Shown here in pieces: positions 38,235 through 59,547 of a stretch of 64,000 nt of DNA. The position numbers and the translations under genes were made by a program. A model generated the notes under the pieces. The model made no database searches. It saw only the letters and a program-made list of their open reading frames with translations, and was not told the DNA's origin. Position 1 is the stretch's first letter; every line of letters starts with the position of its first letter. The DNA comes from Micromonospora pallida (GTDB lineage: Bacteria; Actinomycetota; Actinomycetes; Mycobacteriales; Micromonosporaceae): NCBI RefSeq assembly GCF_900090325.1, contig NZ_FMHW01000002.1, forward strand, positions 7,193,001-7,257,000, read 5' to 3'.

Positions 38235-38252
38235 CCTTAACCTTCGCTAAGG
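38235..38252. promoter_or_regulatory. Acyl-CoA regulon palindrome (site D, hbd)
   Basis: An 18-base inverted repeat, CCTTAACCTTCGCTAAGG. Read on the minus strand it begins CCTTAGCGA, identical to the half-site of sites at 48223 and 59478. It overlaps a plausible -35 (TTAACC, 38237-38242) placed 17 bases from TAGGGT (38260-38265). A bound repressor here would block hbd transcription. Confidence 0.6.
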
Positions 38253-38306
38253 AGTCCCCTAGGGTGCTCGGGAGAGCACTCAACACCAGGCGAGGGAGAG
38301 AAGCAG

Positions 38307-39155
38307 ATGGCGGGTCGACTCGCGGTCGTCGGGGCCGGGCTGATGGGTTCGGGCATCGCCCAGGTGGCGGCACAGGCGGGCTGGCAGGTGACCCTGCGGG
38401 ACCTGGACGACGCGGCCACCGCACGCGGTGTCGCCGGCATCCGGAAGTCGCTGGAGAAGTTCGCCGAGAAGGGCCGGATCGAGGCGTCCGAGGTCGAGGC
38501 GACGCTGGGCCGGATCACCCCGACCACCGACCTGGAGGCCGCCGCCGACGCGGACATCGTCGTCGAGGCGGTCTTCGAGCGGCTGGAGGTCAAGCACGAG
38601 GTGTTCCGGGCGCTGGACAAGATCTGCAAGGCGGACGCGGTGCTGGCGACCAACACCTCGGCCATTCCGGTCACCCAGATCGCCGCGGTCACCGGGCGGC
38701 CCGAGTCGGTCGTCGGCACGCACTTCTTCTCGCCGGTGCCGATGATGAAGCTCTGCGAGCTGGTCCGGGGCTACAAGACCAGCGACGAGACGCTGGCGAC
38801 CGTGCGGGCCTTCGCCGAGGAGATCGGCAAGACCGTGGTGGTGGTCAACCGGGACATCGCTGGCTTCGTCACCACCCGGCTGATCGCCGCGCTGGTGGTC
38901 GAGGCGGTCAAGCTGGTCGAGTCCGGCGTGGTGTCGGCGGAGGACCTGGACACCGCCTGCCGGCTGGGCTTCGGGCACGCCATGGGTCCGCTGGCCACCA
39001 CCGACCTGACCGGCGTGGACGTGCTGATGCACGCGACGAAGAACATCTACACCGACACCGCCGACGAGAAGTTCTTCCCGCCGGAGCTGCTCCAGCGCAT
39101 GGTCACCGCCGGTGACCTCGGCCGCAAGAGCGGCAAGGGCTTCTACACGTACTGA
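38307..39155 (+). CDS. hbd: 3-hydroxybutyryl-CoA dehydrogenase
   Basis: NAD(P)-dependent oxidation or reduction of 3-hydroxybutyryl-CoA / acetoacetyl-CoA. The product is 282 residues. The Rossmann loop VVGAGLMGSGIAQVAAQAG, the NTSAIPVTQIA block, the catalytic His in GTHFFSPVPMMKLCELV, and FVTTRLIAAL are family hallmarks. The C-terminal domain ends in GRKSGKGFYTY. The ATG follows GAGGGAGAGAAG. The context (cobalamin gene, ethylmalonyl-CoA mutase) suggests it feeds crotonyl-CoA / butyryl-CoA metabolism or the ethylmalonyl-CoA route. It has a regulatory palindrome upstream. Confidence 0.94.
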   Translation: MAGRLAVVGAGLMGSGIAQVAAQAGWQVTLRDLDDAATARGVAGIRKSLEKFAEKGRIEASEVEATLGRITPTTDLEAAADADIVVEAVFERLEVKHEVFRALDKICKADAVLATNTSAIPVTQIAAVTGRPESVVGTHFFSPVPMMKLCELVRGYKTSDETLATVRAFAEEIGKTVVVVNRDIAGFVTTRLIAALVVEAVKLVESGVVSAEDLDTACRLGFGHAMGPLATTDLTGVDVLMHATKNIYTDTADEKFFPPELLQRMVTAGDLGRKSGKGFYTY

Positions 39156-39172
39156 GGTCGCCGCGGGCGGCT

Positions 39173-39237
39173 TGAGTGGTAGCAGGGGTCCCCTCCTCAT
39201 CAAAATGCGGTAGGAGGGGACCCCTGCAACCACCTCA
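39173..39237. repeat. Palindromic intergenic repeat, copy 2
   Basis: Nearly perfect inverted repeat: arms 39173-39197 and 39212-39237 share a 16-bp perfect core (GCAGGGGTCCCCTCCT). GTGGTAGCAGGGGTCCCCT and CCCCTGCAACCAC are identical to copy 1 at 18527. As with copy 1, it lies between convergent genes, here hbd (+) and the ABC permease (-). Confidence 0.85.
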
Positions 39238-39246
39238 GCCCGACCG

Positions 39247-40095
39247 TCAGCCGTCGCGGCGGGTGGTCCAGCGGAAGGTGCCCAGGCAGAGCAGCAGCCC
39301 GATCACGCACCACGCGGCGAGGACCAGGGCGACCCGGTCCAGTTCGAAGGAGCCGCCCGGCTCCCGGGCGCCGAAACCGTCGGGCAGGAAGACCGCGCGT
39401 AGCCCCTGGCACATCCACTTCAGCGGGAACAGCGCGGCCACCTGCTGCATCCAGCCTGGCAGGTTGGTGAAGACGAAGAAGACCCCGGAGATGAACTGGA
39501 GCACCAGGGCCACCGGCGTCACCACCGCCGAGCCGCTGCGCGCCGTACGGGCCAGCGACGAGATGGCGATGCCGCACAGGGTGCAGGCGGTCACCCCGAG
39601 CACCGAGACCCAGCCGAAGGTGAGCCACTTCCCGGCGGTGGCCGGCAGCTTCAGGTCGAACAGCGCCACCGAGACAGCGAGCAGCAGGGCGGTCTCGGCG
39701 ACGCCGATCACCACCACCATGATCACCTTGCCGGCGAAGTAGACCCACTTCGGCATCGGGGTGCCCCGGTAGCGCTTCAACACCCCCCGGTCCCGCTCGA
39801 TCGGGATCCAGATGCCGAGATTCTGGAAGCTCACCGTCATCAGCCCGGCCGCGATCATGCCGGTCACGAAGTACTGCGTGTAGCTGACCCCGGGGGCGAT
39901 CTCGTCGTTGAAGATCGCCGCGAAGATCAGGACCATGACGACCGGGAAGCCCATCGTGAACACGACGGACTCCCGGCTGCGCAGGAACTGGGTGATCTCC
40001 AGCCGCCCCTGACGCAGGCCGAGGGCGACTGGCCCCGCGCGCCGGGTCCGGGTCGCGTCGGCGGCGGTCGGGGCCGGCTTCGTCGTCGTGGTCAT
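39247..40095 (-). CDS. ABC-2 type transporter permease
   Basis: Membrane half of an exporter with the ATPase encoded just upstream (ATGA overlap, 40092-40095). The product is 282 residues with six hydrophobic helices (for example SVVFTMGFPVVMVLIFAAIF, VIMVVVIGVAETALLLAVSV, VSVLGVTACTLCGIAISSLA, VALVLAAWCVIGLLLCLGTF). RDRGVLKRYRGTPMPKWVYF is the cytoplasmic loop typical of ABC-2 permeases of the drug/lipid exporter (DrrB-like) group. The substrate is unknown. Confidence 0.88.
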   Translation of the reverse strand: MTTTTKPAPTAADATRTRRAGPVALGLRQGRLEITQFLRSRESVVFTMGFPVVMVLIFAAIFNDEIAPGVSYTQYFVTGMIAAGLMTVSFQNLGIWIPIERDRGVLKRYRGTPMPKWVYFAGKVIMVVVIGVAETALLLAVSVALFDLKLPATAGKWLTFGWVSVLGVTACTLCGIAISSLARTARSGSAVVTPVALVLQFISGVFFVFTNLPGWMQQVAALFPLKWMCQGLRAVFLPDGFGAREPGGSFELDRVALVLAAWCVIGLLLCLGTFRWTTRRDG

Positions 40096-40940
40096 CGCTG
40101 TCCGATCATGCGCAGGTAGACGTCTTCCAGGGTCGGCCGGGTCACGGTGAGGCCGGGCACCTCGCCGCCGTACCGCGCGGCCAGTTCGGCCACCAGCGCC
40201 GTCGGCGTCGCGCTCTCCGCGCTCTGCGCCACCCCGTCCGGCGTACGCCAGGAGACCGTCGCCAGGGCCTCCTGCCGGTTGCCCAGCTGGCCCGGCGTGG
40301 CCACCTCGACCACCCGGCCGGCGGCGATCACCCCGACCCGGTCGGCGAGTGCCTCCGCCTCGTCCAGATAGTGGGTGGTCAGGAGGATGGTGGTGCCGGC
40401 GGCGTTCAGGTCCCGGATCAGCTCCCAGAACTCGCGCCGGGCCTCCGGGTCGAAGCCGGTGGTCGGCTCGTCGAGGAAGAGCAGCTCGGGACGGCCGACG
40501 ATGCCGAGCGCCACGTCGAGGCGGCGCTTCTGCCCGCCGGAGAGGGTGTGCGTACGGGCCTTCGCCTTGCCGGTCAGCCCGACCCGCTCGATGATCTTGG
40601 CCGGGTCGTCGGCGTCCGGATAGAACGCGGCGAAGTGCCCGACCACCTCGGCGACGGTCAGCTCGTCGAACTCCCCGGTGCCCTGGAGCACGATGCCGAT
40701 CCGGGCCCGCCAGTCGGGGGTCGGGTGCGCGGGGTCGGCGCCGAGCACGCTCACCTCGCCCGCGTCCCGCTGCCGGTAGCCCTCCAGGATCTCGACGGTG
40801 GTGGTCTTGCCCGCCCCGTTCGGGCCGAGCAGCGCGAACACCTCACCGCGCCGGACGGCCAAGTCCACGCCGGCCACCGCGACGTTGTCGCCGTACGCCT
40901 TGCGCAGCCCCCGTACCGAGATCGCCAGCTCGTCATCCAT
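40092..40940 (-). CDS. ABC transporter ATP-binding protein (DrrA-like)
   Basis: ATPase partner of the neighbouring permease. The product is 282 residues. Walker A is LLGPNGAGKTTTVEILEGY, signature LSGGQKRRLDVALG, Walker B LLFLDEPTTGFDPEARR, with an H-loop in TTHYLDEAEALADR. The C-terminal extension after about 215 is typical of DrrA-type exporters. ATG 40940 is chosen over an upstream GTG/ATG because conservation begins at LAISVRGLRKAYGD; a CACACT hexamer lies 7 bases upstream. It is divergent from meaA. Confidence 0.92.
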   Translation of the reverse strand: MDDELAISVRGLRKAYGDNVAVAGVDLAVRRGEVFALLGPNGAGKTTTVEILEGYRQRDAGEVSVLGADPAHPTPDWRARIGIVLQGTGEFDELTVAEVVGHFAAFYPDADDPAKIIERVGLTGKAKARTHTLSGGQKRRLDVALGIVGRPELLFLDEPTTGFDPEARREFWELIRDLNAAGTTILLTTHYLDEAEALADRVGVIAAGRVVEVATPGQLGNRQEALATVSWRTPDGVAQSAESATPTALVAELAARYGGEVPGLTVTRPTLEDVYLRMIGQR

Positions 40941-41052
40941 GCCGTCAAGTGTGCGACCCGCGTTGCGTAGCGCGGCCGCCGGGGCCAGATCACTCCGCGC
41001 CGTTTCGGGCATGGTGTCCGGCACATCGCCAGGCCACCGCCCTGTGTGGTTT

Positions 41053-41070
41053 GTCACCGACTTCGGTGAC
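41053..41070. promoter_or_regulatory. Palindrome in the meaA promoter region
   Basis: GTCACCGA-CT-TCGGTGAC is a perfect 8+8 inverted repeat. It covers the place where the -35 of the meaA promoter should lie, 13 bases before the TAGACT hexamer. It differs from the CCTTARCGA palindromes, so a different regulator may act here. Confidence 0.45.
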
Positions 41071-41082
41071 TCGCCGGTAACT

Positions 41083-41088
41083 TAGACT
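41083..41088 (+). promoter_or_regulatory. Candidate -10 of leaderless meaA
   Basis: TAGACT stands 7 bases before the meaA ATG at 41096, with no Shine-Dalgarno sequence, so translation probably starts at or near the mRNA 5' end. Confidence 0.55.
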
Positions 41089-41095
41089 CCCGCCT

Positions 41096-43189
41096 ATGGA
41101 CGAGAAGGCCCCTCCGGACTCCCTTCCGGGCACCCCTTCCCGCCGGCTGCCGGAGCGCGACCGCCCCTGGGTGATGCGCACCTACGCCGGGCACTCCTCG
41201 GCCGCCGCCACCAACGCGCTCTTCCGGCGCAACCTGGCCAAGGGGCAGACCGGCCTGTCGGTCGCCTTCGACCTGCCCACCCAGACCGGGTACGACCCCG
41301 ACCACGAACTCGCCACCGGTGAGGTCGGCCGGGTCGGCGTCCCGGTCGCCCATCTCGGCGACCTGCGGGCCCTCTTCGAGGGCATCCCGCTCGCCGACAC
41401 GAACACCTCGATGACGATCAACGCCCCGGCGATGTGGCTGCTCGCCCTCTACGGCACAGTCGCCACCGAGCAGGGCGCCGACCTGGCCACCTGCGTCGGC
41501 ACCACCCAGAACGACATCGTCAAGGAGTACCTCTCCCGGGGGACGTACATCTTCCCGCCGGCCGCCTCGCTGCGGCTGACCGCCGACGTCGTGGCGTACG
41601 CGCTGCGCGAGATGCCGCGCTGGAACCCGGTGAACATCTGCTCGTACCACCTCCAGGAGGCCGGGGCGACGCCGGTGCAGGAGGTCGGCTTCGCCCTCGC
41701 CACCGCGGTCGCCGTGCTCGACGCGGTCCGCGACTCCGGGCAGGTGCCGGCCGACCGGATGGGCGATCTGGTGGGACGGGTCTCCTTCTTCGTCAACGCC
41801 GGGGTGCGCTTCGTCGAGGAGATGGCGAAGATGCGGGCCTTCGGCCGGCTCTGGGACGAGATCACCCGGGAGCGGTACGGCGTCACCGACCCGAAGCAGC
41901 GCCGCTTCCGGTACGGCGTCCAGGTCAACTCGCTGGGGTTGACCGAGGCGCAGCCGGAGAACAACGTCCAGCGCATCGTGCTGGAGATGCTCGGCGTCAC
42001 CCTCTCCCGGGACGCACGGGCCCGCGCGGTGCAGCTCCCCGCCTGGAACGAGGCGCTCGGCCTGCCCCGGCCGTGGGACCAGCAGTGGTCGTTGCGCATG
42101 CAGCAGGTGCTCGCCCACGAGTCGGACCTGCTGGATTACCCGGACCTCTTCGACGGCTCGCACGTGGTCACCGCGCTGGTCGACGGCATCGTCGCCGGAG
42201 CCCGGGAGGAGCTGGCGACGGTGCTGGGGATGGGGGGCGTGGTCGCCGCCGTCGAGACCGGCTACCTGAAGAGCGCCCTGGTCGCCTCCCTGGCCGAACG
42301 GCGCCGCCGGATGGAGTCCGGCGCGGACGTCGTGGTCGGCGTCAACCGGTTCACCGAGACCGAACCCTCCCCGCTGACCGAGGCCGGCGCGAACGCGGTC
42401 GAGACGGTGGACCCGGCCGCCGAGGCGGTCGCCGTGGCCCGCGTACGCGAGTGGCGGGCGGCTCGGGACACGGCGGCGGTGGACGCCGCCCTCGCCCGGC
42501 TGCGCGCGGACGCCGCGACCACGGCGAACCTGGTGCCGGCCACGTACGAGTGCGTGCGGGCCGGGGTGACCACGGGGGAGTGGGCCGGCGCCCTGCGGGA
42601 GGTCTTCGGCGAGTACCGCGCGCCCACCGGGCTCTCCGGAGCTGCCGGGGTCGGCGGCGACGCCACCCTGACCGAGGTCCGCGAGCGGGTCGCGACGACC
42701 GCGCGGGAGCTGGGCAGCGGCCGGTTGCGGCTGCTGGTCGGCAAGCCCGGCCTGGACGGTCACTCCAACGGCGCGGAGCAGATCGCGGTACGCGCCCGCG
42801 ACGCCGGCTTCGAGGTGGTCTACCAGGGCATCCGGCTGACCGCCGGGCAGATCGTGGCCGCTGCCGTCGAGGAGGACGTGGACCTGGTCGGGCTCTCGGT
42901 CCTCTCCGGCTCGCACCTGGCCGCCGTGCCGGCGGTGCTGGCCGGGCTGCGCGCCGCCGGTCGCCCAGACCTGCCGGTGGTGGTCGGCGGGATCGTCCCG
43001 CCCGCCGACGCGGAGCACCTGCGGGCCGCCGGAGTGGCCCGGGTCTTCACCCCGAAGGACTTCGCGCTGACCGGCATCGTCGACGAACTGGTCACGGTGA
43101 TCCGGGCGGCGAACGGCCTGCCCACGTCCCGTCCCGTCGGCCAGCCCGGGCGCGGCCGGGGCGGCGGGCTGGTTCAGGCCGGCGCGTAG
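41096..43189 (+). CDS. meaA: Ethylmalonyl-CoA mutase (MeaA-like)
   Basis: Adenosylcobalamin enzyme that rearranges (2R)-ethylmalonyl-CoA to methylsuccinyl-CoA in the ethylmalonyl-CoA pathway. The product is 697 residues with both domains fused: TIM barrel at about 22-510, and B12-binding domain at about 543-680 with the cobalt-ligand histidine H556 in KPGLDGHSNGAEQ. RTYAGHSSAAATN, SVAFDLPTQTGYDPDHELA and GTTQNDIVKEYLSRGTYIFP fit the MeaA/Ecm subgroup rather than methylmalonyl-CoA mutase; this is judged by eye. crotonyl-CoA carboxylase (ccr), its usual neighbour, is not in the window. Its 3' end overlaps the convergent DUF1540 gene by 16 bases. Confidence 0.88.
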   Translation: MDEKAPPDSLPGTPSRRLPERDRPWVMRTYAGHSSAAATNALFRRNLAKGQTGLSVAFDLPTQTGYDPDHELATGEVGRVGVPVAHLGDLRALFEGIPLADTNTSMTINAPAMWLLALYGTVATEQGADLATCVGTTQNDIVKEYLSRGTYIFPPAASLRLTADVVAYALREMPRWNPVNICSYHLQEAGATPVQEVGFALATAVAVLDAVRDSGQVPADRMGDLVGRVSFFVNAGVRFVEEMAKMRAFGRLWDEITRERYGVTDPKQRRFRYGVQVNSLGLTEAQPENNVQRIVLEMLGVTLSRDARARAVQLPAWNEALGLPRPWDQQWSLRMQQVLAHESDLLDYPDLFDGSHVVTALVDGIVAGAREELATVLGMGGVVAAVETGYLKSALVASLAERRRRMESGADVVVGVNRFTETEPSPLTEAGANAVETVDPAAEAVAVARVREWRAARDTAAVDAALARLRADAATTANLVPATYECVRAGVTTGEWAGALREVFGEYRAPTGLSGAAGVGGDATLTEVRERVATTARELGSGRLRLLVGKPGLDGHSNGAEQIAVRARDAGFEVVYQGIRLTAGQIVAAAVEEDVDLVGLSVLSGSHLAAVPAVLAGLRAAGRPDLPVVVGGIVPPADAEHLRAAGVARVFTPKDFALTGIVDELVTVIRAANGLPTSRPVGQPGRGRGGGLVQAGA

Positions 43190-43461
43190 GTCAGGCAGTC
43201 GGCGCTGGCCTCGCCCACCCGGATGGCCGGGGCGTGGCACTCCAGTTCGGCGTTGTGTTGGCAGTCCGCCCGCTGACACGCGCCGACCTGGGCGACGAGC
43301 ATCTCGATGCCGCCCCGTACTGGCATCTCCACGAAGGTGTGGCAGCGGGCGTGGTCGCTGCTGCCGACCGTGATGGCGAAGGCCCGACAGCCGTTCTCGT
43401 TGTACGAGCACCGGGTGACGGTGCACTCCTCGACGGGGGGCATCTGGACGGCGCTGGTCAT
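43174..43461 (-). CDS. DUF1540 cysteine-rich protein
   Basis: 95-residue small protein with two Cys-rich halves: VEECTVTRCSYNENGCRAFA and GACQRADCQHNAELECHAP. The spacing CxxxxCxxxxxxC in each half is that of DUF1540, a likely metal-binding module of unknown function. ATG 43461 follows AGGAGG at good spacing. It is convergent with meaA, with a 16-base tail overlap. Confidence 0.88.
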   Translation of the reverse strand: MTSAVQMPPVEECTVTRCSYNENGCRAFAITVGSSDHARCHTFVEMPVRGGIEMLVAQVGACQRADCQHNAELECHAPAIRVGEASADCLTYAPA

Positions 43462-43534
43462 CGTGGCCTCCTCTGGTCGTTATGAACGGATTTTACGTCT
43501 TTGTTCCTTCCGTTCAGGAGGATTTGGCGGGAAG

Positions 43535-44449
43535 TCAGTCCCCGAGGACCTCGGAGAGCGGAGCCGGTGTCAGATTGCGCTCGGCCAGCCCGGCGAGGAT
43601 GTGCGGCAACGCCTCGTCGGTCATCGCGGCGTTCGCCTCGGTGACGTGCATGATGATCACCGAACCGGGCTTCACCTGGCTGAGTACGGCCCGGACGATC
43701 GGCCGCCAGGCGGTGGCGAACGGATCCCCGCTCACCACGTCCCCGTCGACCACGGTCGTGCCCAGCGGCGCGAGCGCGGCGAGCGCCGGGCCGTCGTGGC
43801 AGAGTCCGGGAAAGCGGAAGTACCGGGTCTGCCGACCGCCGTACGCCTCCACCAGTTCGAACGTGCGCGCCACGTCTGTGGTCATCTGGGCGGCGGGGAT
43901 CCGGGGCAGCTGGTAGCAGTCCGACGTGAAGGCCAGGTGTCCGTAGGTGTGGTTGGCCAGTTCGAAGCGTGGGTTCCCGGCCAGCCGCCGGGTCACCTCC
44001 GGATACCGCTCCACCCACTTGCCGGTGAGGAAGAAGGTGGCCGGCACCTCCTCCCGCTCCAGCAGCTCGATGATCCGCATGTTCGCGTACGACCGCACCC
44101 GTCCGGTCCGTAACTGGTGCAGCATCCCGTCCGTCATGTCCGCGTCGAAGGTGAGCGCGACCTTGTTGCCGGTGCGGGGGCCGTGGTCGACGACCGGCGG
44201 TCGGGTCCCGGGCCGCGTCGCACCGGGGATCCGTCCCGGGGTTCCGGTCGAACCTTCCGGCTGAGCCGGGGCGTCCGGGGTCGGCCGGGAGGCGGGGTCG
44301 TCACTCGGCTCGGGTGTGGCCGGTGCCCGGGTGACCCAGGCGCCCGTCTCGGTGAGCCGCTGCCCACCGTCCCAGCTCAGGATGGCGACACCGACCCCGG
44401 CGACCAGGGCGGTGGCGAGCAGGAGGACGTGGAACTTCTTCAGGAACAC
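43535..44449 (-). CDS. Membrane-anchored polysaccharide deacetylase (NodB domain)
   Basis: 304 residues. An N-terminal signal anchor (KFHVLLLATALVAGVGVAIL) is followed by a Pro/Thr-rich linker (about 40-95) and a NodB catalytic domain. Motif 1 is ALTFDADMTDGM, where the second Asp is one residue later than in the classical TFDD. Motif 2 is the metal-binding NHTYGH; RYFRFPGLCH is motif 3-like, and a late HVTEAN supplies another His. It probably removes acetyl groups from a wall or exopolymer sugar. The shifted motif 1 leaves some doubt about activity. The GTG start has a GATCAT hexamer 6 bases upstream. Confidence 0.85.
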   Translation of the reverse strand: MFLKKFHVLLLATALVAGVGVAILSWDGGQRLTETGAWVTRAPATPEPSDDPASRPTPDAPAQPEGSTGTPGRIPGATRPGTRPPVVDHGPRTGNKVALTFDADMTDGMLHQLRTGRVRSYANMRIIELLEREEVPATFFLTGKWVERYPEVTRRLAGNPRFELANHTYGHLAFTSDCYQLPRIPAAQMTTDVARTFELVEAYGGRQTRYFRFPGLCHDGPALAALAPLGTTVVDGDVVSGDPFATAWRPIVRAVLSQVKPGSVIIMHVTEANAAMTDEALPHILAGLAERNLTPAPLSEVLGD

Positions 44450-44503
44450 CGGAAGATGATCGCAGTCTCGGCCCCGCCCGCCCGTCGGCCAGGTGGCCAG
44501 GAA

Positions 44504-45094
44504 TCATGGCCGGCGCCGCCGACGCTCGGCGCGGCGGCGCAGGAACCAGAAGACGAAGGCGAGCAGCCCGACCAGGAAGACCAGCACCAGCACCGGCAGC
44601 AGGATCGCCACGACGGACATCACCACACTGGTGGCGTCCTCGGCGGTGCTCGCGACCGGCGCGCCGACGCCCGCCGTGGTGGCGTTGACGACGGGTCGGG
44701 CCGCCGACTTCAGCAGGTGCACCCCGAACGCGATCAGCACGCCCACCACCACGGGCACCCAGTCACTGGAGGCGAAGAACTGCCCGGGGTCGCTGACGGT
44801 GACCGTCTCCGAGCTGGAGCCGGCCCCGAAGGCGAGCCCACCGGCGGTCGGCCGGACCACCGTCTGGACGATGTCGTTGACGTGGTCGACCACCGGCACC
44901 TTGTCCGCGACCACCTCCACGGCCAACAGGACGGCCAGGATCGCCATGACCCACCCGTCGTCGAGCCACTGCCAGCCGGCGGGCAGGGTGATCACGTCGG
45001 TGTATCGCGCCAGCACTCCCATGGTGAGCAGCGGGATGTAGGCGTTCAGACCGGCGGAGGCAGCCAGACCGGTTCCGGTGAGGACTTCGAACAC
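44504..45094 (-). CDS. DUF4126 membrane protein
   Basis: 196 residues with several hydrophobic segments ([79 protein letters not shown]) and an Arg-rich C-terminus ([13 protein letters not shown]). The [12 protein letters not shown] and [20 protein letters not shown] pattern is that of DUF4126. Its function is unknown. The GTG start is divergent from nucS. Confidence 0.82.
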
Positions 45095-45153
45095 CCGTCC
45101 AGGATGGCACCGGCGCGCCAGCGGTGCTCGGTGGCGACGGCCGACCGCTCCGC

Positions 45154-45159
45154 TACCCT
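45154..45159 (+). promoter_or_regulatory. Candidate -10 of leaderless nucS
   Basis: TACCCT lies 6 bases before the GTG of nucS, with no Shine-Dalgarno sequence between. Confidence 0.5.
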
Positions 45160-45165
45160 CGTCGG

Positions 45166-45825: not shown

Positions 45826-45858
45826 CGTACCGCGTCGGGGGCCGGCGGCGGCTGGCCC

Positions 45859-48222: not shown

Positions 48223-48238
48223 CCTTAGCGACCGTTCA
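48223..48238. promoter_or_regulatory. Acyl-CoA regulon palindrome (site A)
   Basis: CCTTAGCGACCGTTCA matches site B at 59478 at 15 of 16 positions. It lies 32 bases before the GTG of the two-domain dehydrogenase and just after a -10-like CAGACT (48206-48211), where a repressor would block transcription. Confidence 0.65.
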
Positions 48239-48270
48239 TGTGGCGGTCCGGAAGCGACGGGAGGCCGGTC

Positions 48271-50055
48271 GTGGCGCGCGAGTTCACCAGCGTGGGCGTT
48301 GTCGGACTGGGCACCATGGGTGCCGGAATCGTCGAGGTGTTCGCCCGCAACGGCGTCGACGTCGTGGCGGTGGAGATCTCCGAGGAGGCGCTGGAGCGCG
48401 GCCGCGCGACGCTGACCCGGTCGACCGATCGGGCGGTGGCCCGGGGCAGGCTCACCCCCGCCGACCGGGACGCCCTGCTGGGCCGGGTGCGCTTCGCCGT
48501 CGGACTGGCCGCCCTGGACGCGGTGGACCTGGTGATCGAGGCCGTCCCCGAACGACTCGACCTGAAGCGGCGACTCTTCGCCGAACTCGACCGGATCTGC
48601 CGGCCGGAGGCCATCCTCGCCACCAACACCTCCTCGCTGAGCGTCACCGAGATCGCCGTCGCCACCGAGCGCCCGCAGCGGGTGGTCGGCGTCCACTTCT
48701 TCAACCCGGCACCGGTGATGAAGCTGGTCGAGGTGATCCGGACGGTGGTCACCGCCCCCGAGGTGGTGGCCGACGTCGAGGCGTTCTGCCGCCGGCTGGG
48801 CAAGGTTGGCGTCACCATCGGTGACCGGGCCGGCTTCATCGCCAACTTCCTGCTCTTCGGCTACCTCAACCAGGCCATCGGGATGCTCGAGGCGCAGTAC
48901 GCCAGCCGGGAGGACATCGACGCAGCGATGAAGCTCGGCGGCGGCCTGCCGATGGGTCCGCTGACGCTGCTGGACCTGATCGGCCTAGACGTCGCGTACG
49001 AGATCCTCGACACGGTGTACCGGCGGGGCGGTCGGGACCGGCGGCACGCGCCCGCGCCGCTGCTCCGGCAGATGGTCACCGCGGGGCTGCTTGGCCGGAA
49101 GTCCGGCCGGGGCTTCTACACCTACGAGCGGCCGGGCTCGCCGGTGGTCGTACCGGACGACCGGACGCCGGTGGCGACGGAGACCGCGCCCGCCGACGGC
49201 GCGCGGGCGGTCGCCAAGATCGGTGTGGTCGGTGGCGGCCCGACGGCCACCGGGATCGTCGAGGCCCTCGCCCACGCCGGCTACGACGTGGTGTCGGTGA
49301 CCCGGGGCGAGGAGCGTCCGGTCCGGGCGGCGCTCACGCCCGCGCTGGACGAGGGCGTGGCCGGGGGCCGGTCCACCGAGGCCGACCGGGACGCCGCGCT
49401 CGCCCGGATCACCTGGTCGACGACGCTCGACCACCTCGCCGACGTCGACCTGGTGATCGAGGCGGTGGCCGAGGAGGTCGGCGCCAAGAAGGCCCTCCTC
49501 GCCAGCCTCGACGAGATCTGCAAGCCGGGCGTGGTGCTGGCCACCACCACCGCCACGCTGTCGGTGATCGAGCTGGCGACGGCCACCCAGCGCCCTGCCG
49601 ACGTGGTCGGGCTGCACTTCTTCGACCCGGTCCCGATGGTGCCGCTGGTGGAGATCGTCCGGACCATCCGCACCTCGGCGGAGGCGCTGGCGACCGCCCG
49701 CGCGGTCGTCGAGCGGCTCGGCGGGACCGGCGTGGTCTGCGGCGACCGGGCCGGGTTCATCGTCAACGCGCTGCTCTTCCCGTACCTGAACGACGCGGTG
49801 CGGATGCTGGAGGCGAACTACTCCACCGTCGACGACGTCGACCACGCGATGAAGCTGGGCTGCGGCTACCCGACGGGTCCCTTCGAACTGCTGGACACGG
49901 TCGGCCTGGACGTCGCCCTGGACACCCAGCGGGCGCTCTACCGGGAGCTGCGGGAGCCCGGCCTGGCGCCCGCGCCGCTGCTGGAACACCTAGTCACCGC
50001 CGGCTACCTGGGCCGCGAAAGCGGTCGCGGGTTCCGCGACCACACCCAGCGCTGA
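48271..50055 (+). CDS. Two-domain 3-hydroxyacyl-CoA dehydrogenase
   Basis: 594-residue tandem fusion of two 3-hydroxyacyl-CoA dehydrogenase units, each with a Rossmann domain and a C-terminal helical domain. Unit 1 (about 1-285) is intact: VVGLGTMGAGI, ATNTSSLSVTEIA, VHFFNPAPVMKLVEV, RAGFIANFLL. Unit 2 (about 309-590) is altered: the NAD loop reads VVGGGPTATGI and the NTSS block reads TTTATLS, losing the catalytic Ser region. The His and Glu (LHFFDPVPMVPLVEI) and Asn (RAGFIVNALL) remain. GTG 48271 has GGGAGG at ideal spacing; the ATG 11 codons earlier overlaps site A. It probably acts in beta-oxidation or phenylacetate-type degradation. Confidence 0.9.
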   Translation: MAREFTSVGVVGLGTMGAGIVEVFARNGVDVVAVEISEEALERGRATLTRSTDRAVARGRLTPADRDALLGRVRFAVGLAALDAVDLVIEAVPERLDLKRRLFAELDRICRPEAILATNTSSLSVTEIAVATERPQRVVGVHFFNPAPVMKLVEVIRTVVTAPEVVADVEAFCRRLGKVGVTIGDRAGFIANFLLFGYLNQAIGMLEAQYASREDIDAAMKLGGGLPMGPLTLLDLIGLDVAYEILDTVYRRGGRDRRHAPAPLLRQMVTAGLLGRKSGRGFYTYERPGSPVVVPDDRTPVATETAPADGARAVAKIGVVGGGPTATGIVEALAHAGYDVVSVTRGEERPVRAALTPALDEGVAGGRSTEADRDAALARITWSTTLDHLADVDLVIEAVAEEVGAKKALLASLDEICKPGVVLATTTATLSVIELATATQRPADVVGLHFFDPVPMVPLVEIVRTIRTSAEALATARAVVERLGGTGVVCGDRAGFIVNALLFPYLNDAVRMLEANYSTVDDVDHAMKLGCGYPTGPFELLDTVGLDVALDTQRALYRELREPGLAPAPLLEHLVTAGYLGRESGRGFRDHTQR

Positions 50056-51335: not shown

Positions 51336-51471
51336 CCCAACTCCTGAGCTGAAGCCGGCCGGTGTCGCTGGCCGCCGATCCCTGAGCTGCCCCAACCCCT
51401 GAGCGGACCCGGGCCCGCGACCGGTCGGGTGCCGGGCCGACCCCGCGCCGGACCGCCACCCGGCCCGGGGG

Positions 51472-52413: not shown

Positions 52414-52427
52414 GCCAGGAGTATCGG

Positions 52428-54383
52428 TTACTCCGACTCGACCGTTACCTTCGTCGGCTTCGCGCTGCGCTCGTCGGTGGTCGGCTTGGTCGGTCGCTTC
52501 CCGCCCTCACCGGTGCTGGTGATCTTCGTCGGGGTGGCACCGCGGCCTCCCTCACCGGGAACCGCCGCCACCGTCGGCTCACCGTCGACCCCCGAGCTGG
52601 CGGCCCCGCCGTCCAGGGTGGTCACCGGTTCGGCCACCGGCCGGGCCTTCGGCTTGCCGGCGTCGCCGTCGGCGGCGACCTCGGCGATCCGGCGGGCCTC
52701 CGCCTGCGCCCGGGCCGCCGACTCGCCGGCCTGCCGGACCGAGGTGTCCGTCTCGGCCAGCCGGGACCGCTCGCCGCCGAGCTGCTGACGGATCTCCTCC
52801 AGGGCCTGCTGGAGGTCGTCGGACTCCTGCCGGGACTGCCAGGTCTCCTGCCGCAGGTCGGCCAGCTCCTGCTGGGCCTGGGCGATCTCCAGCATCACCT
52901 GGGCCAACTGCTGCCGGCCGGCGGCGACCTCCTGCTGGGTGGCGGCCAGGTGCTGCTGGGTCGTCGCCAGGTGCTGCTGGGTGGTGGCCGCGTACTCCTC
53001 GAACTGCCGGCGGGACGTCACCATGTGCTCGTCGGCCTTGCGCCGCTTCGTGACGGCCTCCGCCTCGGCCTCGCGGAGCACCTGCTCGGCCCGCTCCTCG
53101 GCCTCACGGCGCAGCGTCGCCACCTCCTGCTCGGTGTCCCGGCGCAGCGTCGTGACCTCCTGTTCGGCGGTCTGCCGCAGGGCCGCCGCAGCCTGTTCGG
53201 CCTCCTGCCGGATCCCGGCCGCCCCCTGCTCGATCTCGTCGCGGCGGGCGGTGTACTCCCGCTCCAGCTCCTCGCGGCGGGTCGTGAACTCCCGGTCGGC
53301 GGTCTCCCGGCGCTGGGTCAGCTCCCGCTCGGCCGTCTCCCGCTGCGCCTTGAGCTCCTTCTCCACCCCGGCCCGCCAGGTGCCCAGTTCCTGCTGGGTC
53401 TGCGCGCGGGCCTGCTGGACGTACGCCTCGGTTTCGGTGCGCATCCGCTGCACGTACGCCTCGGTCTCGGCCCGGTTGCGCTTGGCCGTCTCGGCCGTCT
53501 GCTTGGTGAGCTGGTCCGCTTCCTGCTGGGCCTTGGCCCGGGTGGCCTGCGCCGCCTCGGCGGCCTGGTCGGTGAGTTTCTTGGCCTCCTGCTGGGCCTT
53601 GGCGTGCGTCGCCCGGCCGGCCTCGGTGGCCTGGTCGGTCAGGCGCTTGGCGTCCTGCTGCGCCTTCAGATGCACCTCTTTGGCCGCGTCGCGGAGCTGG
53701 GTGGCCTCCTGCTGGGCCTTGGCGTGCGCCTCCCGGGCCGCCTCGCGCAGCTTCGTCGCCTCCTGCTGAGCCCGGTTGTGGATCTCCTTGGCGGCGTCGC
53801 GGAGCTGGGTGGCCTCCTGCTGGGCCTTGGTCAGCGCGGTCTGCGCGGCCTCCCGGATCCGGGCCGCCTCCTCCCGGGCGGCGGTGACCGTCGCCTCCGC
53901 CTCGGCCCGTCGGGCCTTGCTGTGCTGCTCCTCCTCGGCCCGCCGGACGGTCAGCGCGAGTTCGAAGTCCTTCAGGGCCTTCGCGGCCTGCTCACGGGCT
54001 TCCTCGATGATGTGCTCGGCCGCCGTGCGCCGCGCCTCGATCTCTTCGCTGGCCGAGGCGAGGATGTCGTCGGCCTGTTCCTCGGCGAGGGTGAGGATCT
54101 GCTCCACCCGGGGCCCCAGATGCCGGAACGACGCCCGGTCCACCACGGCGTTCTGCTTACGCACCTGCGCCAGGTCGCGCTGGAGCACCTCCACCTGGCC
54201 CGCGAGCTTGTGGATGTGTGTGTACGCCTGTTCCCGTTCGGCTGTCAGCGCCGCGATCTCGTGCTCGGCACGAGCCACGTACCGGTCGACCTGTCGTTTC
54301 TCGTACCCCCGCAGGGCGGACTCGAAGCTGGGCTCCGTGGTCACTTCCCCGCCGAGAGCGAACAGTTCCTCGCCGTGCGACAT
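52428..54383 (-). CDS. Long coiled-coil polarity protein (Scy/FilP/DivIVA-like)
   Basis: 651 residues, almost entirely alpha-helical coiled coil. The N-terminal 60 residues match the DivIVA-like start ([20 protein letters not shown]). The rod runs to about 590 with tandem repeats: [13 protein letters not shown] units recur six times at 18- or 22-residue spacing (about residues 210-320), followed by ELxxRRET/EREF blocks. The last ~60 residues are Ser/Thr/Pro/Lys-rich. By position next to mce and thl it corresponds to the Scy/FilP pair of Streptomyces, which organise polar growth. ATG 54383 follows GAGGATGGGG and is preferred over an ATG 15 codons upstream. Confidence 0.82.
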
Positions 54384-54489
54384 ATCCCCATCCTCACACG
54401 GCTTCGGCCCCGGTGCGGCAATACGCACGGCGACGATGGGACCCAGTTCACCCGCGCGGGGGGAGGTGTCGATCGGCTTCGGTGGGCAG

Positions 54490-54537
54490 CGTACGGCGCG
54501 GGGTGCACCCGTTCAAGGTGACACCCCGCGCCGTACG
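54490..54537. terminator. 16-bp perfect hairpin after coiled-coil gene
   Basis: Arms 54490-54505 (CGTACGGCGCGGGGTG) and 54522-54537 are perfect inverted repeats; the 16-base loop holds an extra CACC/GGTG pair. It lies 28 bases beyond the stop codon of the minus-strand gene ending at 54566, so it probably terminates that transcript. Confidence 0.7.
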
Positions 54538-54565
54538 ACTCATGCCCCGATCGATGCGCGGGCCG

Positions 54566-55828
54566 TCAGCTGGACTTCTCCGCGGACACCGGCTCGGCGG
54601 CGGCCTCCTCGGCCTTCTTGGGGGCGGGCGTCTCGGCCTTCTGCTGCGGGGGCACGCCCGGCACGATGCCGGCGAGACCGGAGAGCATCTGACCGAGTTG
54701 CGCGGTGACCGCGTCCTTCTGGCGGGTGAGGTCGTCGACCTCCCGACGCGCGGCCTGGGTGGTCAGCTCCGCCTCGGTGCGCGCCTCGGTGAGCAGGCGC
54801 TGCGCCTCGGCCTTCGCCTCGTTGAGGGTCTTCTCGGCCAGTGACTTGGCCTTGTCGACGGTGTCGGCGGCGGTGCGCTCGGACTCGACCCGGCGGGTCT
54901 CGGCGCGCTGCTCGATTTCCTTGGCGCGCTCCTGCGCGGCGCGGGCCCGCTGCTCGGCCTCGCCGACCAGCTTCTGGGTCTGTGCGACCTGCGCGGCGTG
55001 CCGCTCGGACTCCTCGCGCTCGGCCTTCTCGCGCCGCTCGGCGAGCTGCAGCTCCAGGGCCTGGAGGTCCTTGTCCCGCTTGTCGCGGGCGTCGGTGAGG
55101 AGCTTGGTCGCCTCGGCGCGCTTCTCCTCGGCCTCGCGGGCGGCCTTGGCCCGCTGCTGGGTGATCTCCCGTTCGGCGGTGGCGCGCAGGGTGGCCACCT
55201 CACGCTCGACAGTGGACTTCAGCTCGGCGACCTCGTGCGCGGTGACCGTGCGGAGCTGCTTGGTCTCCCGCTCGGCGTCGGCGCGCAGCGTGTCGGCCTC
55301 GCGGCGGGCCTGCACCCGGACCTCGGCCGCCTCCCGCTCCGCGGTGGTGCGGACGCCGCCCGCCTCCCGCTCGGCGGTGGCCTTCATCGCCGCCGCCTCG
55401 GCCCGCGCCTTGTCGGTGATCTCGCGGGCTTCGAGGCGGGCCGCGGAGAGGATGCCCTCGGACTCGCGCTTGGCCTCGTTGCGGTGGTCGTTGGCCTGCT
55501 CCTCGGCGAGCCGCAGGATCTGCTCGACCCGGGTACCGAGGCCGGAGAGGGTCGGCCGGTTGTTCTCCTCGAGCTGCTTGTTGGTCTCGGCGAGCTTCTG
55601 CTCCAGCGCCGCGAGCCGCTGCTCAGCCTGGCGGAGCCGACGCTGTGCGTCGTTCATCCGCTGCTCGGCCTCGGCGCGGGCCTGCTCGGACTGGGTCAGC
55701 GCGGCGGTCAGCCGTCCGATGAAGTCGTCGACCTGTCCTGTGTTGTATCCGCGCAGGCCAACGGTGAAATCCGGCTGGGAGTTCGCGTTATCGAAGAACG
55801 CGAGAGGGGAGGACTGCTGCTGGGGCAT
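54566..55828 (-). CDS. Coiled-coil protein, second member (Scy/FilP-like)
   Basis: 420 residues, paralogous in build to its downstream neighbour. It shares the start (DFTVGLRGYNTGQVDDFIGR) and the block GTRVEQILRLAEEQANDHRNEA, which matches [22 protein letters not shown] there. The rod (about 40-370) is rich in xAEREAxxVR units. The tail (about 385-420) is Ala/Pro/Glu/Lys-rich. It probably forms cytoskeletal filaments at growth sites together with the neighbouring gene; this is by analogy with Streptomyces FilP and Scy. Confidence 0.82.
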   Translation of the reverse strand: MPQQQSSPLAFFDNANSQPDFTVGLRGYNTGQVDDFIGRLTAALTQSEQARAEAEQRMNDAQRRLRQAEQRLAALEQKLAETNKQLEENNRPTLSGLGTRVEQILRLAEEQANDHRNEAKRESEGILSAARLEAREITDKARAEAAAMKATAEREAGGVRTTAEREAAEVRVQARREADTLRADAERETKQLRTVTAHEVAELKSTVEREVATLRATAEREITQQRAKAAREAEEKRAEATKLLTDARDKRDKDLQALELQLAERREKAEREESERHAAQVAQTQKLVGEAEQRARAAQERAKEIEQRAETRRVESERTAADTVDKAKSLAEKTLNEAKAEAQRLLTEARTEAELTTQAARREVDDLTRQKDAVTAQLGQMLSGLAGIVPGVPPQQKAETPAPKKAEEAAAEPVSAEKSS

Positions 55829-56241
55829 TGGCCCATACTCGCAGACGCCCCGGGGTGCTTCGCAAGAGCGGTGCGGAGCTTTTTGTCCTCTTTACCTGGT
55901 CACCTCCCACGCGCTCGGTGGCCGGTACCGGACAGGCGATCTTGGCAGCTCCGGGCCGGGGTGTGCGGCGTACCTGGTAGACCGGAAAAGAACCGCCGCC
56001 CGCCGGGTCGCCGTTTTTCGGGTCACCGTCGGTATCGATCGATTCGGTGCCGGTCGAGCACCGACGAAAGCCAATGCCGGACACGCAATGACGATCCGGT
56101 TCCCCCGGAGGTCCTCGATGGCCGCCACCGGCCGACCGCGTCCGGCGCCGCGCGGCGGAGCCCGGCTCCGGGACCTCGATTCGATCGGTGGCCGGGGCCC
56201 CGGCCCGACGCTGAGCGGTGACCGGGGCCCCGGCGGCCACC
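55829..56241. other. 413-base gene-poor interval
   Basis: No supported gene. The short frames present lack homology and ribosome sites. GC-palindromic runs near 56190-56240 (GGCCGGGGCCCCGGCC-like, twice) may terminate the minus-strand mce transcript. The A/T-richer stretch at about 55875-55900 and 55990-56050 could hold the promoter of the coiled-coil gene at 55828. Nothing else was recognised. Confidence 0.4.
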
Positions 56242-56706
56242 TCAGGCGGGCTGGACCAGCTCGACGAGGACGCCGCCGGCGTCCTTCGGGTGGACGAAGT
56301 TGATCCGGGAGTCGGCGGTGCCCCGGCGCGGGGTGTCGTAAAGCAACCGCAGGCCGCGCTCGCGCAGCGCCGCGCAGGCCGCGTCGATGTCGGTGACGGT
56401 GTACGCGACCTGCTGCACCCCCGGCCCGTTGCGGTCCAGGAACTTCGCGATCGTCGACTCCGGAGTGAGCGGGGCGAGCAGTTGCAGGCAGCCACCCTCG
56501 GTGGTCGGGCCGACCGCCAGCATCGCCTCGCGGACCCCCTGCTCGGTGTTGGTCTCGGTGTGCACGCAGCGCATGCCGAAGGTTTGCTGGTAGAAGTCGA
56601 TCGCCTTGTCAAGGTCGGCGACCGCCACACCCACGTGGTCGATTCGGCGGATACCGATGTCTGTGACGTAGTCCGCAGCGGGCTTGTCGGGGGAGATCTC
56701 TGCCAT
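56242..56706 (-). CDS. mce: Methylmalonyl-CoA epimerase
   Basis: Interconverts (2R)- and (2S)-methylmalonyl-CoA, needed between the carboxylase/mutase reactions. The product is 154 residues with two VOC (glyoxalase-fold) repeats. Metal ligands are H24 in RIDHVGVAVADLDKA, the Gln/His region GPGVQQVAYTVTDIDAA, and the Glu in GGVLVELVQPA. The ATG at 56706 has a CAGACT hexamer 6 bases upstream (56713-56718, minus strand), so it is probably leaderless. It is divergent from the thiolase gene, sharing the operator-like site C. Confidence 0.93.
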   Translation of the reverse strand: MAEISPDKPAADYVTDIGIRRIDHVGVAVADLDKAIDFYQQTFGMRCVHTETNTEQGVREAMLAVGPTTEGGCLQLLAPLTPESTIAKFLDRNGPGVQQVAYTVTDIDAACAALRERGLRLLYDTPRRGTADSRINFVHPKDAGGVLVELVQPA

Positions 56707-56719
56707 GGCGTTAGTCTGA

Positions 56720-56736
56720 CCGAACAGTCGTTAAGG
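56720..56736. promoter_or_regulatory. Acyl-CoA regulon palindrome (site C, mce/thl)
   Basis: CCGAACAGTCGTTAAGG; on the minus strand this reads CCTTAACGACTGTTCGG, fitting the consensus CCTTARCGAYYGTTC. It lies in the 62-base divergent promoter region and next to the -10-like CAGACT of mce, so it can control both directions. Confidence 0.65.
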
Positions 56737-56768
56737 CGTACAGGTTCGGTACCCCCTCGGAGGCAGAC

Positions 56769-57968
56769 ATGGCTTCGGTGATCGTCAGCGGCGCGCGGAC
56801 CCCGATGGGGCGCCTGCTGGGCAACCTCAAGGACCTCTCCGCGACGAAGCTCGGCGGAGTAGCGATCAAGGCCGCGTTGGAGCGTGCCGGGGTCGCCCCG
56901 GAACAGGTGCAGTACGTGATCATGGGGCAGGTGCTCCAGGCCGGTGCGGGGCAGATGCCGGCCCGGCAGGCGGCGGTCGAGGCGGGCATCCCGATGTCCG
57001 TACCGGCGCTGAACATCAACAAGGTCTGCCTCTCCGGGCTGGACGCGATCGCCCTGGCCGACCAGCTCATCCGGGCCGGCGAGTTCGACATCGTGGTGGC
57101 CGGCGGCATGGAGTCGATGACCAACGCCCCGCACCTGCTGCTCGGTCAGCGCGGCGGCTACAAGTACGGCGACGTGACGGTGAAGGACCACATGGCGCTG
57201 GACGGCCTCACCGACGCCTGGGACTGCTGCGCGATGGGCGAGTCCACCGAGCGGCACGGCGTGAAGCACAACATCACCCGCGAGGAGCAGGACGCCTTCG
57301 CCGCGGCCAGCCACCAGAAGGCGGCCGCCGCGCAGAAGAACGGCCACTTCGCCGACGAGATCACCCCGGTGCTGATCCCGCAGCGCAAGGGCGACCCGCT
57401 GGTGATCAGCGAGGACGAGGGCATCCGCCCGGACACCACCGTCGAGTCGCTGGCCAAGCTCCGTCCGGCGTTCACCAAGGACGGCACGATCACCGCGGGC
57501 AGCGCGTCGCCGATCTCCGACGGGGCCGCCGCCGTGGTGGTGATGAGCAAGGCCAAGGCCAAGGAGCTGGGGCTGACCTGGCTGGCCGAGGTCGGCGCGC
57601 ACGGCAACGTGGCCGGGCCGGACAACTCCCTGCACTCGCAGCCGTCGAACGCGATCGTGCACGCCCTGAAGAAGGGCGGGTTGAGCATCGAGGATCTCGA
57701 CCTCATCGAGATCAACGAGGCGTTCGCGGCGGTCGGCATCAAGAGCACCCGCGACCTCGGGGTCGACCCGGCGATCGTCAACCCGAACGGCGGGGCGATC
57801 GCGCTCGGCCACCCGATCGGCATGTCCGGCGCCCGACTGGTGCTCACCCTCGCGCTGGAGTTGAAGCGGCGCGGTGGCGGCACCGGGGCGGCGGCGCTCT
57901 GCGGTGGCGGCGGGCAGGGCGACGCGCTGATCATCCACGTCCCCGGTGCCGGCGAGAACGCTCAGTGA
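56769..57968 (+). CDS. Acetyl-CoA C-acetyltransferase (thiolase)
   Basis: Condenses or cleaves acetoacetyl-CoA. The product is 399 residues. The acyl-carrying Cys is in [14 protein letters not shown]. The base His is in [14 protein letters not shown] and the second Cys in [23 protein letters not shown] is conserved. GGAGG precedes the ATG. The stop overlaps the meaB start (GTGA), so the two genes are cotranscribed. The neighbouring gene is mce, as in Streptomyces. Confidence 0.95.
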
Positions 57969-58954
57969 GCGAGCTGGGCACCGCCGCGCCGTCCATCCGG
58001 CGCAGTCGGGACGTACCCCTGCTGGTCGAGCGGGCCCGCGCGGGTGACCCCCGCGCGGTGGCCCGGCTGATCACCCTGGTCGAGTCCGGTGACGAGGTGC
58101 TGCCGCAGGTCGCGGCGGCCCTCGCGCCGTACGCCGGGCAGGCCCAGGTGGTCGGGCTGACCGGCTCGCCCGGGGTGGGGAAGTCGACCACCACCAACGA
58201 GCTGGTCCGGGCGCTGCGGGCGCGCGGGCACCGGGTCGGGGTACTCGCCGTGGACCCGTCCAGCCCGTTCACCGGCGGGGCGATCCTGGGCGACCGGGTC
58301 CGGATGCAGGACCACGCCCTCGACCCCGGCGTCTACATCCGGTCGATGTCCAGCCGGGGGCACCTCGGCGGGCTCTCGGCGGCCACTCCGCAGGCGGTCC
58401 GGGTGCTGGAGGGCGCGGGCTGCGACGTGGTGCTGGTGGAGACGGTCGGGGTCGGGCAGGCCGAGGTCGAGGTGGCCTCGCTCGCCGACACCACGCTGGT
58501 GCTGCTCGCTCCCGGCATGGGCGACGCGATCCAGGCAGTCAAGGCCGGCATCCTGGAGATCGCCGACGTCTTCGTGGTCAACAAGGCCGACCGGGACGGC
58601 GCCGACGCCACCGTCCGCGACATCCAGGGCATGATCGCGCTGGGCGAGCGCGGGCCGGGCGAGTGGCGGCCCCAGGTGGTCCGCTCGATCGCCGCGCGCG
58701 GCGAGGGGATCGACGACATCGCCGCCGCCATCGACAAGCACCGGGGCTGGCTGGTCGAGCACGGTGAGCTGCGCCGTCGGCGCGAGGCGCGGGCCGCCGC
58801 CGAGATCGAGGCGATCGCGCTCGGCGTGCTCCGCGCCCGGATCGGCTCGCTGCGCGACGGTACGGAGCTGCCGACGCTCGCCGCCCGGGTGGCCGAGGGG
58901 GCGCTGGACCCGTACGCCGCGGCGGACGAGTTGCTGGCCCAGCTCGGTAGCTGA
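57965..58954 (+). CDS. meaB: Acyl-CoA mutase GTPase chaperone MeaB
   Basis: G-protein chaperone (ArgK/MeaB/MMAA family) that loads adenosylcobalamin into acyl-CoA mutases and protects them from inactivation. The product is 329 residues. Walker A is [55 protein letters not shown] and the guanine-specificity NKAD in [12 protein letters not shown] follow. The GTG start overlaps the thiolase stop. Likely clients are the mutases at 41096 and 59548. Confidence 0.95.
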
Positions 58955-59035
58955 AGGTCCACCGTCGCCCCGCCCGGCCTAGTACGCTCGCACCGCCGCA
59001 CGGCCTGGGGCGGTATGGATGTCTTGGGGGAGAGC

Positions 59036-59449
59036 ATGGCTGACGAGGCGACACAGGAGCTGACCGGGACGCCGGGCGCGGTGGCGGGTGGCACGACGCA
59101 GGTCTCCGACGAGGTGGTGGAGAAGATCGCGGTGGCCGCCGCGAAGTCCGTCCCCGGGGTGACCGAGCTGGGTGGTGACGTGGCCCGGTTCTTCAACGCC
59201 GTGCTCGACAAGGTCGGTCTGGACCAGGTCGGCGACGCTCGGCGCGGCTGCTCCGCGCACGTCACCAACGGCGCGGCGGTGGTGAACCTGGTGATCGTGA
59301 TCGACGCCGGTCGGCCGGTGCCTGAGGTGACCAACGGGGTCCGGGCCGCCGTCACCCAGGCGGTCGAGGCGTACGGGCTGCGGGTCGACGAGGTCAACAT
59401 CCGGGTCGACGACGTGGCCCTGGGCGACCTGGCGACGCCGCCGGCCTGA
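59036..59449 (+). CDS. Asp23/Gls24 family envelope stress protein
   Basis: 137 residues. Asp23/Gls24 (DUF322) domain: VSDEVVEKIAVAAAKSVPGV, then VNLVIVIDAGRPVPEVTNGV and YGLRVDEVNIRVDDV. The family is linked to envelope homeostasis or stress in Gram-positives. ATG 59036 has GGGGGAGA upstream and is preferred to ATG 59015. It lies between meaB and icmA. Confidence 0.85.
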   Translation: MADEATQELTGTPGAVAGGTTQVSDEVVEKIAVAAAKSVPGVTELGGDVARFFNAVLDKVGLDQVGDARRGCSAHVTNGAAVVNLVIVIDAGRPVPEVTNGVRAAVTQAVEAYGLRVDEVNIRVDDVALGDLATPPA

Positions 59450-59477
59450 CGTGCCTCCGGGCGGACGGCACGACTGG

Positions 59478-59495
59478 CCTTAGCGATCGTTCAGG
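59478..59495. promoter_or_regulatory. Acyl-CoA regulon palindrome (site B, icmA)
   Basis: CCTTAGCGATCGTTCAGG is a near-perfect palindrome (CCTTAGCGA / CCTGAACGA). It overlaps the -35 position relative to TACACT (59504-59509), with a spacer of about 18 bases, upstream of icmA. Confidence 0.7.
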
Positions 59496-59547
59496 CTGCG
59501 CTCTACACTCGACGTGCAGTCGAAGGACCCGAGGAGGAGCCCTGCGC

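Follow-up and report, generated by a model that had tools for sequence, protein, structure and literature searches.

We analysed a 64,000-nt stretch of the Micromonospora pallida chromosome (the window; positions without a prefix count from its first letter) and found near the starts of its acyl-CoA genes four copies of one 18-bp palindrome, with the half-sites CCTKARCGA and TCGYTMAGG. These palindromes (A to D) are very probably operators of a single dimeric TetR-family repressor, a likely orthologue of AccR and relative of BkaR, whose gene lies at C2:5927118-5927732. An initial annotation of the window had listed four sites with a shared palindrome at these places, and both direct reading and pattern searches bear this out. 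The acyl-CoA genes it had seen beside them are also there: 3HCDH-domain genes at A and B, epimerase, thiolase and MeaB genes at C, and the gene of a mutase large subunit at D. The operators and the genes beside them are listed below.

38235..38252: operator A, CCTTAACCTTCGCTAAGG (read directly, and found by genome scan and matrix)
38260: start of TAGGGT, -10-like, 7 nt past operator A
38307..39155, plus strand: hbd, 3-hydroxyacyl-CoA dehydrogenase, 282 aa (Pfam 3HCDH_N and 3HCDH)
48223..48240 (15-mer to 48237): operator B, CCTTAGCGACCGTTCATG; the likely GTG start, at 48271, follows 30 bp on
48271..50055, plus strand: two-domain 3-hydroxyacyl-CoA dehydrogenase (Pfam 3HCDH_N and 3HCDH)
56242..56706, minus strand: mce, methylmalonyl-CoA epimerase (TIGR03081, 139.7 bits, cut-off 114.95), divergent from thl
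56712..56717, plus strand: TAGTCT, -10-like element of thl, one base ahead of operator C
56719..56736 (15-mer 56722-56736): operator C, minus-strand reading CCTTAACGACTGTTCGGT, common to mce (minus strand) and thl (plus strand)
56769..57968, plus strand: thl, acetyl-CoA acetyltransferase (TIGR01930, 454 bits, cut-off 240.55)
57965..58954, plus strand: meaB, mutase-associated GTPase (Pfam MeaB, 310 bits)
59478..59495 (15-mer to 59492): operator D, CCTTAGCGATCGTTCAGG (read directly, and found by genome scan and matrix)
59504..59509, plus strand: TACACT, -10-like element of icmA, 8 nt past operator D
59548..61236, plus strand: icmA-like mutase large subunit, 562 aa (TIGR00641, 654.7 bits; Pfam MM_CoA_mutase)

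The 15-mer CCTTARCGAYYGTTC matches the window three times without mismatch (B, C and D), and operator A differs from it at three positions yet is a near-perfect 18-bp palindrome. At up to three mismatches, the 15-mer does not reach significance in the window by itself (8 matches versus a shuffle mean of 4.49; 6 of 100 shuffles reach 8). The significance of the operators rests instead on the full palindrome, the genome scan and conservation in relatives. A matrix built from eight sites of this genome gives A to D the four top scores of the window (21.4–27.6), a ranking that is partly circular because all four are among the eight. The next score, 14.1, falls on palindrome ACTGATCCACCGATCAGT at 33674-33691, outside called genes, which is probably the site of another regulator.

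Conservation was scored with the same matrix, counting a gene as preceded by an operator if the best score within 250 bp upstream was at least 14; the window's own gene, whose site is part of the matrix, is counted each time. Here and below, the family is a taxonomic grouping of 61 genomes within the Micromonosporaceae. Operators were found upstream of 45 of 58 thl genes, 52 of 56 icmA genes, 34 of 53 hbd genes and 23 of 36 genes for the two-domain dehydrogenase, and at a stricter score of 18 upstream of 33, 50, 21 and 16, respectively. Later loci were located by tblastn; one thl locus that was too short and a partial icmA match in G100 were left out, and for 11 of the 36 two-domain genes the match spans only the first 350 residues or so. 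Dinucleotide shuffles (20 per upstream set) gave means of 0.15 (thl), 0.05 (icmA), 0.10 (hbd) and 0.05 (two-domain) loci, with a maximum of 1. In the remaining sequence of the first 30 loci per set, matches numbered 9, 0, 0 and 0 in 116.5, 132.9, 107.1 and 130.3 kb, in the same order. In a genus scan, 30 of 61 genomes carry a near-exact palindrome versus 6 of 61 for the control (genome counts only), and the exact 18-mer of operator D is present in 24 of the 61 (manual count). Five of the first 30 thl loci (L099, L106, L112, L115, L118) carry a second operator-like palindrome 562–733 bp upstream of the gene, in a region where M. pallida has the sequence lying past mce and a DivIVA-like gene.

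Operator position relative to the promoter also recurs among relatives. A TANNNT -10 element starts 7–9 nt past the operator in 46 of 52 icmA sites and 17 of 34 hbd sites, which puts the operator on the -35 element. At thl, TANNNT starts 24–26 nt before the operator end in 36 of 45 sites, so that the operator follows the -10 at a distance of about one base and spans the transcription start; operator C moreover ends 12 nt ahead of the mce start codon on the opposite strand. Of the 23 sites at two-domain dehydrogenase genes, 9 have TANNNT at -20/-21. In the window itself, the operator sits on the -35 at D and A and over the start at C. The earlier suggestion that B and D overlap the predicted -35 is thus borne out for D, and extends to A, but not for B, which has no TANNNT at the spacing of a -35 overlap. 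A spacing that recurs for each gene but differs between genes fits steric repression.

In the genome, an 18-mer scan at up to three mismatches returned nine places, six of them upstream of acyl-CoA genes (A, B, D, C2:5045161, C2:5206489 and C2:5922880) and three in coding sequence. The site at C2:5045161 precedes a 583-aa acyl-CoA carboxylase alpha subunit, and that at C2:5922880 an acyl-CoA carboxylase beta subunit (accD1). C2:5206489 lies 45–62 nt before the likely internal ATG start of a MaoC-type hydratase gene; it is within the longest reading of that frame and counts as upstream only with the internal start. A relaxed scan gave 14 places, comprising seven acyl-CoA promoters, one site at the pyruvate phosphate dikinase gene (ppdK), two at a TetR-MMPL pair and four with a matrix score of their own below 13. 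Among them, C2:2014334 is some 170 bp ahead of a fadE2-like acyl-CoA dehydrogenase gene, overlapping the end of the gene before it. Operator C has more than three mismatches to the palindrome and is therefore in neither list. The reversed-pattern control of the palindrome scan had 0 matches, but it holds CTAG, which is rare in such genomes; the contrast is overstated and we do not rely on it. A looser 14-base genome scan with one mismatch showed no enrichment (11 and 12 matches versus 15 and 16 for the control). The initial annotation had agreed to give way should the sites turn out randomly scattered, mostly coding or not conserved; as far as pattern scans allow, it did not have to.

These sites make the regulon dispersed, as had been proposed, but wider than the butyrate/isobutyrate scope then given to it, since it takes in a leucine-type acc cluster, an acyl-CoA carboxylase, a MaoC hydratase, a fadE2-like gene and perhaps ppdK. 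The operator-like sequence just before ppdK (C2:7569537, L259) scores 22.4 and, if true, would tie the regulon to gluconeogenesis. Another site, at C2:6087387 (score 19.4), stands before a gene with no evident acyl-CoA role.

The initial annotation had also noted that no regulator gene is in the window, and our candidate lies 1.3 Mb away on the same chromosome (start approximate). It heads a one-strand tetR-accA1-hmgL-accD1-fadE cluster in which 1.8 kb separate accA1 from hmgL, and it lies 4.2 kb from C2:5922880, where the operator stands before accD1. The product has both TetR-type domains (PF00440, 63.7 bits, cut-off 24; PF17932, 29.7 bits, cut-off 26.4). Its best NCBIfam match is the SACE_7040 regulator family (223.6 bits versus 48.8 for the next), and the nearest solved structure by sequence is 4g12 (148.6 bits), named as a probable TetR-family regulator. 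Counterparts of the TetR, taken at E ≤ 1e-30, are present in 57 of the 61 family genomes. The palindrome recurs upstream of tetR or in the tetR-accA1 gap in 30 of these 57 loci (16 of the 30 most similar and 14 of the 27 others); no other match was seen in 93.5 kb of the first 30 loci, nor elsewhere in the remaining 27. A TetR gene with the same site in its own promoter, which the initial annotation had suggested looking for, is represented in the family by these 30 loci, with the tetR-accA1 gap counted in, but is not what this genome has. In two genomes of one genus (G092 and G117; 93% and 82% complete), tetR, thl, icmA and hbd are all missing together, possibly through loss of the whole module.

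A matching locus exists in Streptomyces. We took the best 80 of 567 relatives of a Streptomyces-type alignment query (78 of the 80 are titled Streptomyces) and found palindromes of the GTTAR-N6-YTAAC type within 250 bp upstream of tetR in 79 of these 80 loci; five more occur in their other 938 kb. In S. coeruleorubidus, the one locus whose gene order was read, tetR is divergent from accD1-accA1-hmgL-fadE. The M. pallida proteins fadE and fadE2-like are 78% and 64% identical to their Streptomyces counterparts. Four further genomes, taken for Streptomyces because one of them, G175, has a TetR 98% identical to the S. muensis protein, have 21 places matching GTTARYGNNCRYTAAC with at most one mismatch (control, 6): eight at the tetR/accD1 locus, six directly and two probably before enoyl-CoA hydratase genes, two at a fadE2-like dehydrogenase gene and three others, with three of the adjacent genes verified by Pfam. 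None of the 21 was recognised as icmA or hbd. In a sample of the class, a TetR match at 1e-22 is present in 64 of 148 genomes. A related palindrome was read manually in 24 of the 28 best loci outside the family (one with a mismatch, one at the 3' end of tetR); these loci were placed by k-mer anchor, some of them wrongly.

Several observations weigh against assigning the four sites to this regulator. In M. pallida, no operator was found at the tetR promoter or in the tetR-accA1 gap, and the same holds for 27 of the 57 family loci, this genome included; among the nine nearest tetR loci (L068-L076), only that of G026 has one, and it is weak (15.8). In G062 (94% complete, 810 contigs) no tetR was detected, and the icmA and thl sites are kept. 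No site precedes 13 of 58 thl, 4 of 56 icmA, 19 of 53 hbd and 13 of 36 two-domain genes. The SACE_7040 score is under the curated cut-off of 250, and identity to the Streptomyces proteins is modest for TetR (52% over 163 residues), accA1 (51%), hmgL (42%) and accD1 (39%). The outer operator base is C here and G in AccR and BkaR, and pattern scans, which are not a full genome matrix scan, recognised no enoyl-CoA hydratase gene beside the sites of this genome, unlike the situation reported for AccR.

Some of this could be accommodated if a different TetR paralogue bound the four sites and the acc cluster were just another target. The genome has at least 45 TetR_N matches (150 of 190 candidates scored), its own tetR lacks an operator, and a TetR gene adjoining an MMPL transporter gene has motif-like tandem palindromes, CTGACCGATCGGTCAG. 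We consider a paralogue improbable, given the recurrence of the operator at the tetR locus in 30 of 57 family genomes and of a kindred palindrome at the matching locus in 79 of the best 80 Streptomyces-type loci; the MMPL-type palindrome, in addition, reads CCG at a position where RCG predominates in the conserved operators. The tandem palindromes lie at C2:7183687-7183721 (L063:7687-7723), 9.3 kb before the window, and are a separate TetR operator of similar shape. The TetR beside the MMPL-like gene, about 9.4 kb before the window, was accordingly rejected as the regulator of A to D, having CTGACCGATCGGTCAG palindromes of its own.

The variable position of the operator relative to the -10 might instead suggest activator or two-way sites. 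That reading is very unlikely: in 36 of 45 thl sites about one base separates the -10 from the operator, which covers the start, and AccR and BkaR are reported to be repressors. Chance palindromes near acyl-CoA genes, which would account for the insignificant 15-mer count in the window, have a negligible probability, since the sites are conserved in several genera, keep a recurring distance to the -10 and are nearly absent elsewhere; we rejected them on the upstream conservation compared with shuffles.

We thus keep to one acyl-CoA-responsive TetR repressor encoded at the acc cluster. The core inference of the initial annotation, a single repressor of this type whose gene is outside the window, has strong support from the candidate gene, the operators at its locus and the conservation throughout the family. 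From sequence comparison, strict orthology to AccR appears likely, and we infer that this TetR binds the palindromes and represses. A TetR dimer on CTKAR-N6-YTMAG would block transcription by occupying the -35 element at icmA and hbd and, at thl/mce, the start region. By analogy with AccR, the signal would be acyl-CoA: a rise in short-chain acyl-CoAs might make the repressor let go, releasing the leucine-type carboxylase cluster, the hydroxyacyl-CoA dehydrogenases, the thiolase, the epimerase, the mutase and a carboxylase. These enzymes could then interconvert and drain short-chain acyl-CoAs.

The operator and the recognition helix both differ from those of the Streptomyces type. Half-site base -8 is C in 163 of 190 family halves (selected by the inner core alone) and G in 316 of 316 halves of Streptomyces-type loci (selected by TTA/TAA). 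The family half-site is KAR rather than TAR, with G at -6 in 108 and T in 82 of the 190 halves. At residue 59, in the recognition helix, all 57 family members have H, and all 28 others compared have R or K. This co-difference represents one evolutionary split, and several helix positions differ; we hypothesize that residue 59 is linked to the outer operator base. The genes icmA, hbd, two-domain dehydrogenase, carboxylase alpha and the MaoC gene are not among the targets named in the available portions of the AccR and BkaR reports. We tentatively suggest that the repressor was re-specified, from GTTAR-N6-YTAAC to CTKAR-N6-YTMAG with GPALYRHF/KHF becoming GPALYHHF, and that a regulon first devoted to leucine-type catabolism may have come to include carboxylation and the interconversion of butyryl- and isobutyryl-CoA (icmA, hbd, carboxylase alpha), which would make the repressor a general homeostat of short-chain acyl-CoAs. 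Counterparts that differ together in a helix residue and an operator base would offer a natural case of TetR specificity change.

Micromonosporaceae are known as antibiotic producers, and the proposed regulator and operator would serve genes that determine how much butyryl-, isobutyryl-, malonyl- and methylmalonyl-CoA is available; many antibiotics are built from these units. In a literature search that left most subscription journals outside, we found nothing joining isobutyryl-CoA mutase, TetR and a palindrome, no mention of Micromonosporaceae in the papers listed on AccR/BkaR/PccD/Fad35R-type regulons and, by title, nothing on a Micromonospora TetR acyl-CoA operator.

Two details concern the window genes themselves. 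In the translation of 48238-50052, Pfam finds two stretches each of 3HCDH_N and 3HCDH, and the gene probably starts at GTG 48271, with GGGAGG in front, rather than at ATG 48238. A second mutase gene, at 41096-43186, has MM_CoA_mutase and B12-binding domains in one protein and no operator listed by the matrix upstream.

Among known systems, two share some traits. AcrT of Saccharopolyspora erythraea is a TetR over acyl-CoA carboxylase genes that is released by propionyl-/methylmalonyl-CoA; it was rejected as the regulator since its motif, nttGaTc, is unlike the palindrome (PMC8546615). The initial annotation had named PaaR of Thermus as its analogue, a TetR acyl-CoA sensor with AACG-like halves and a putative site AACGA-N4-TCGGT (PMC10933834). 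PaaR was rejected as the nearest relative, though no search was aimed at it, since the acc-linked AccR/BkaR lineage fits our data.

The candidate has the TetR domains, the acc-cluster neighbourhood and the two operator halves six bases apart that mark the AccR/BkaR type, and sites precede accD1, the fadE2-like gene and thl, matching control of the acc operon and of fadE2 or a thiolase. AccR of Streptomyces avermitilis is a TetR repressor of accD1A1-hmgL-fadE4, echA8, echA9 and fadE2 through GTTAA-N6-TTAAC (PMC10933834), with methylcrotonyl-, propionyl- and acetyl-CoA as reported ligands (PMC8546615). The Streptomyces-type sites before the acc cluster, enoyl-CoA hydratases and a fadE2-like gene fit these targets. 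M. pallida shares with AccR the acc-hmgL-fadE cluster and fadE2 targets and a 16-bp palindrome with a TTAA-N6-TTAA core. It differs in the outer base, in a tetR that runs in the same direction as accA1 rather than divergent from accD1 as at the S. coeruleorubidus locus, in lacking an operator at its own tetR promoter, and in its targets: hbd, thl/mce, icmA, MaoC and carboxylase alpha, with no echA8/echA9 site recognised. A BkaR-like protein is reported to have 45% homology to AccR (PMC11596240). Mycobacterial BkaR has the GTTA outer half-site, autoregulation with two sites and bkd targets, unlike the M. pallida system, where the outer G of GTTA...TAAC and the autoregulatory operator are both absent. 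It is alike in being a TetR beside accD1 with a palindrome of equal spacing, GTTA-N-T-N4-A-N-TAAC, and in controlling a thiolase, MSMEG_4920, through GTTAATCATCGTTAAC (PMC3920632), which suggests that the thl target may be old.

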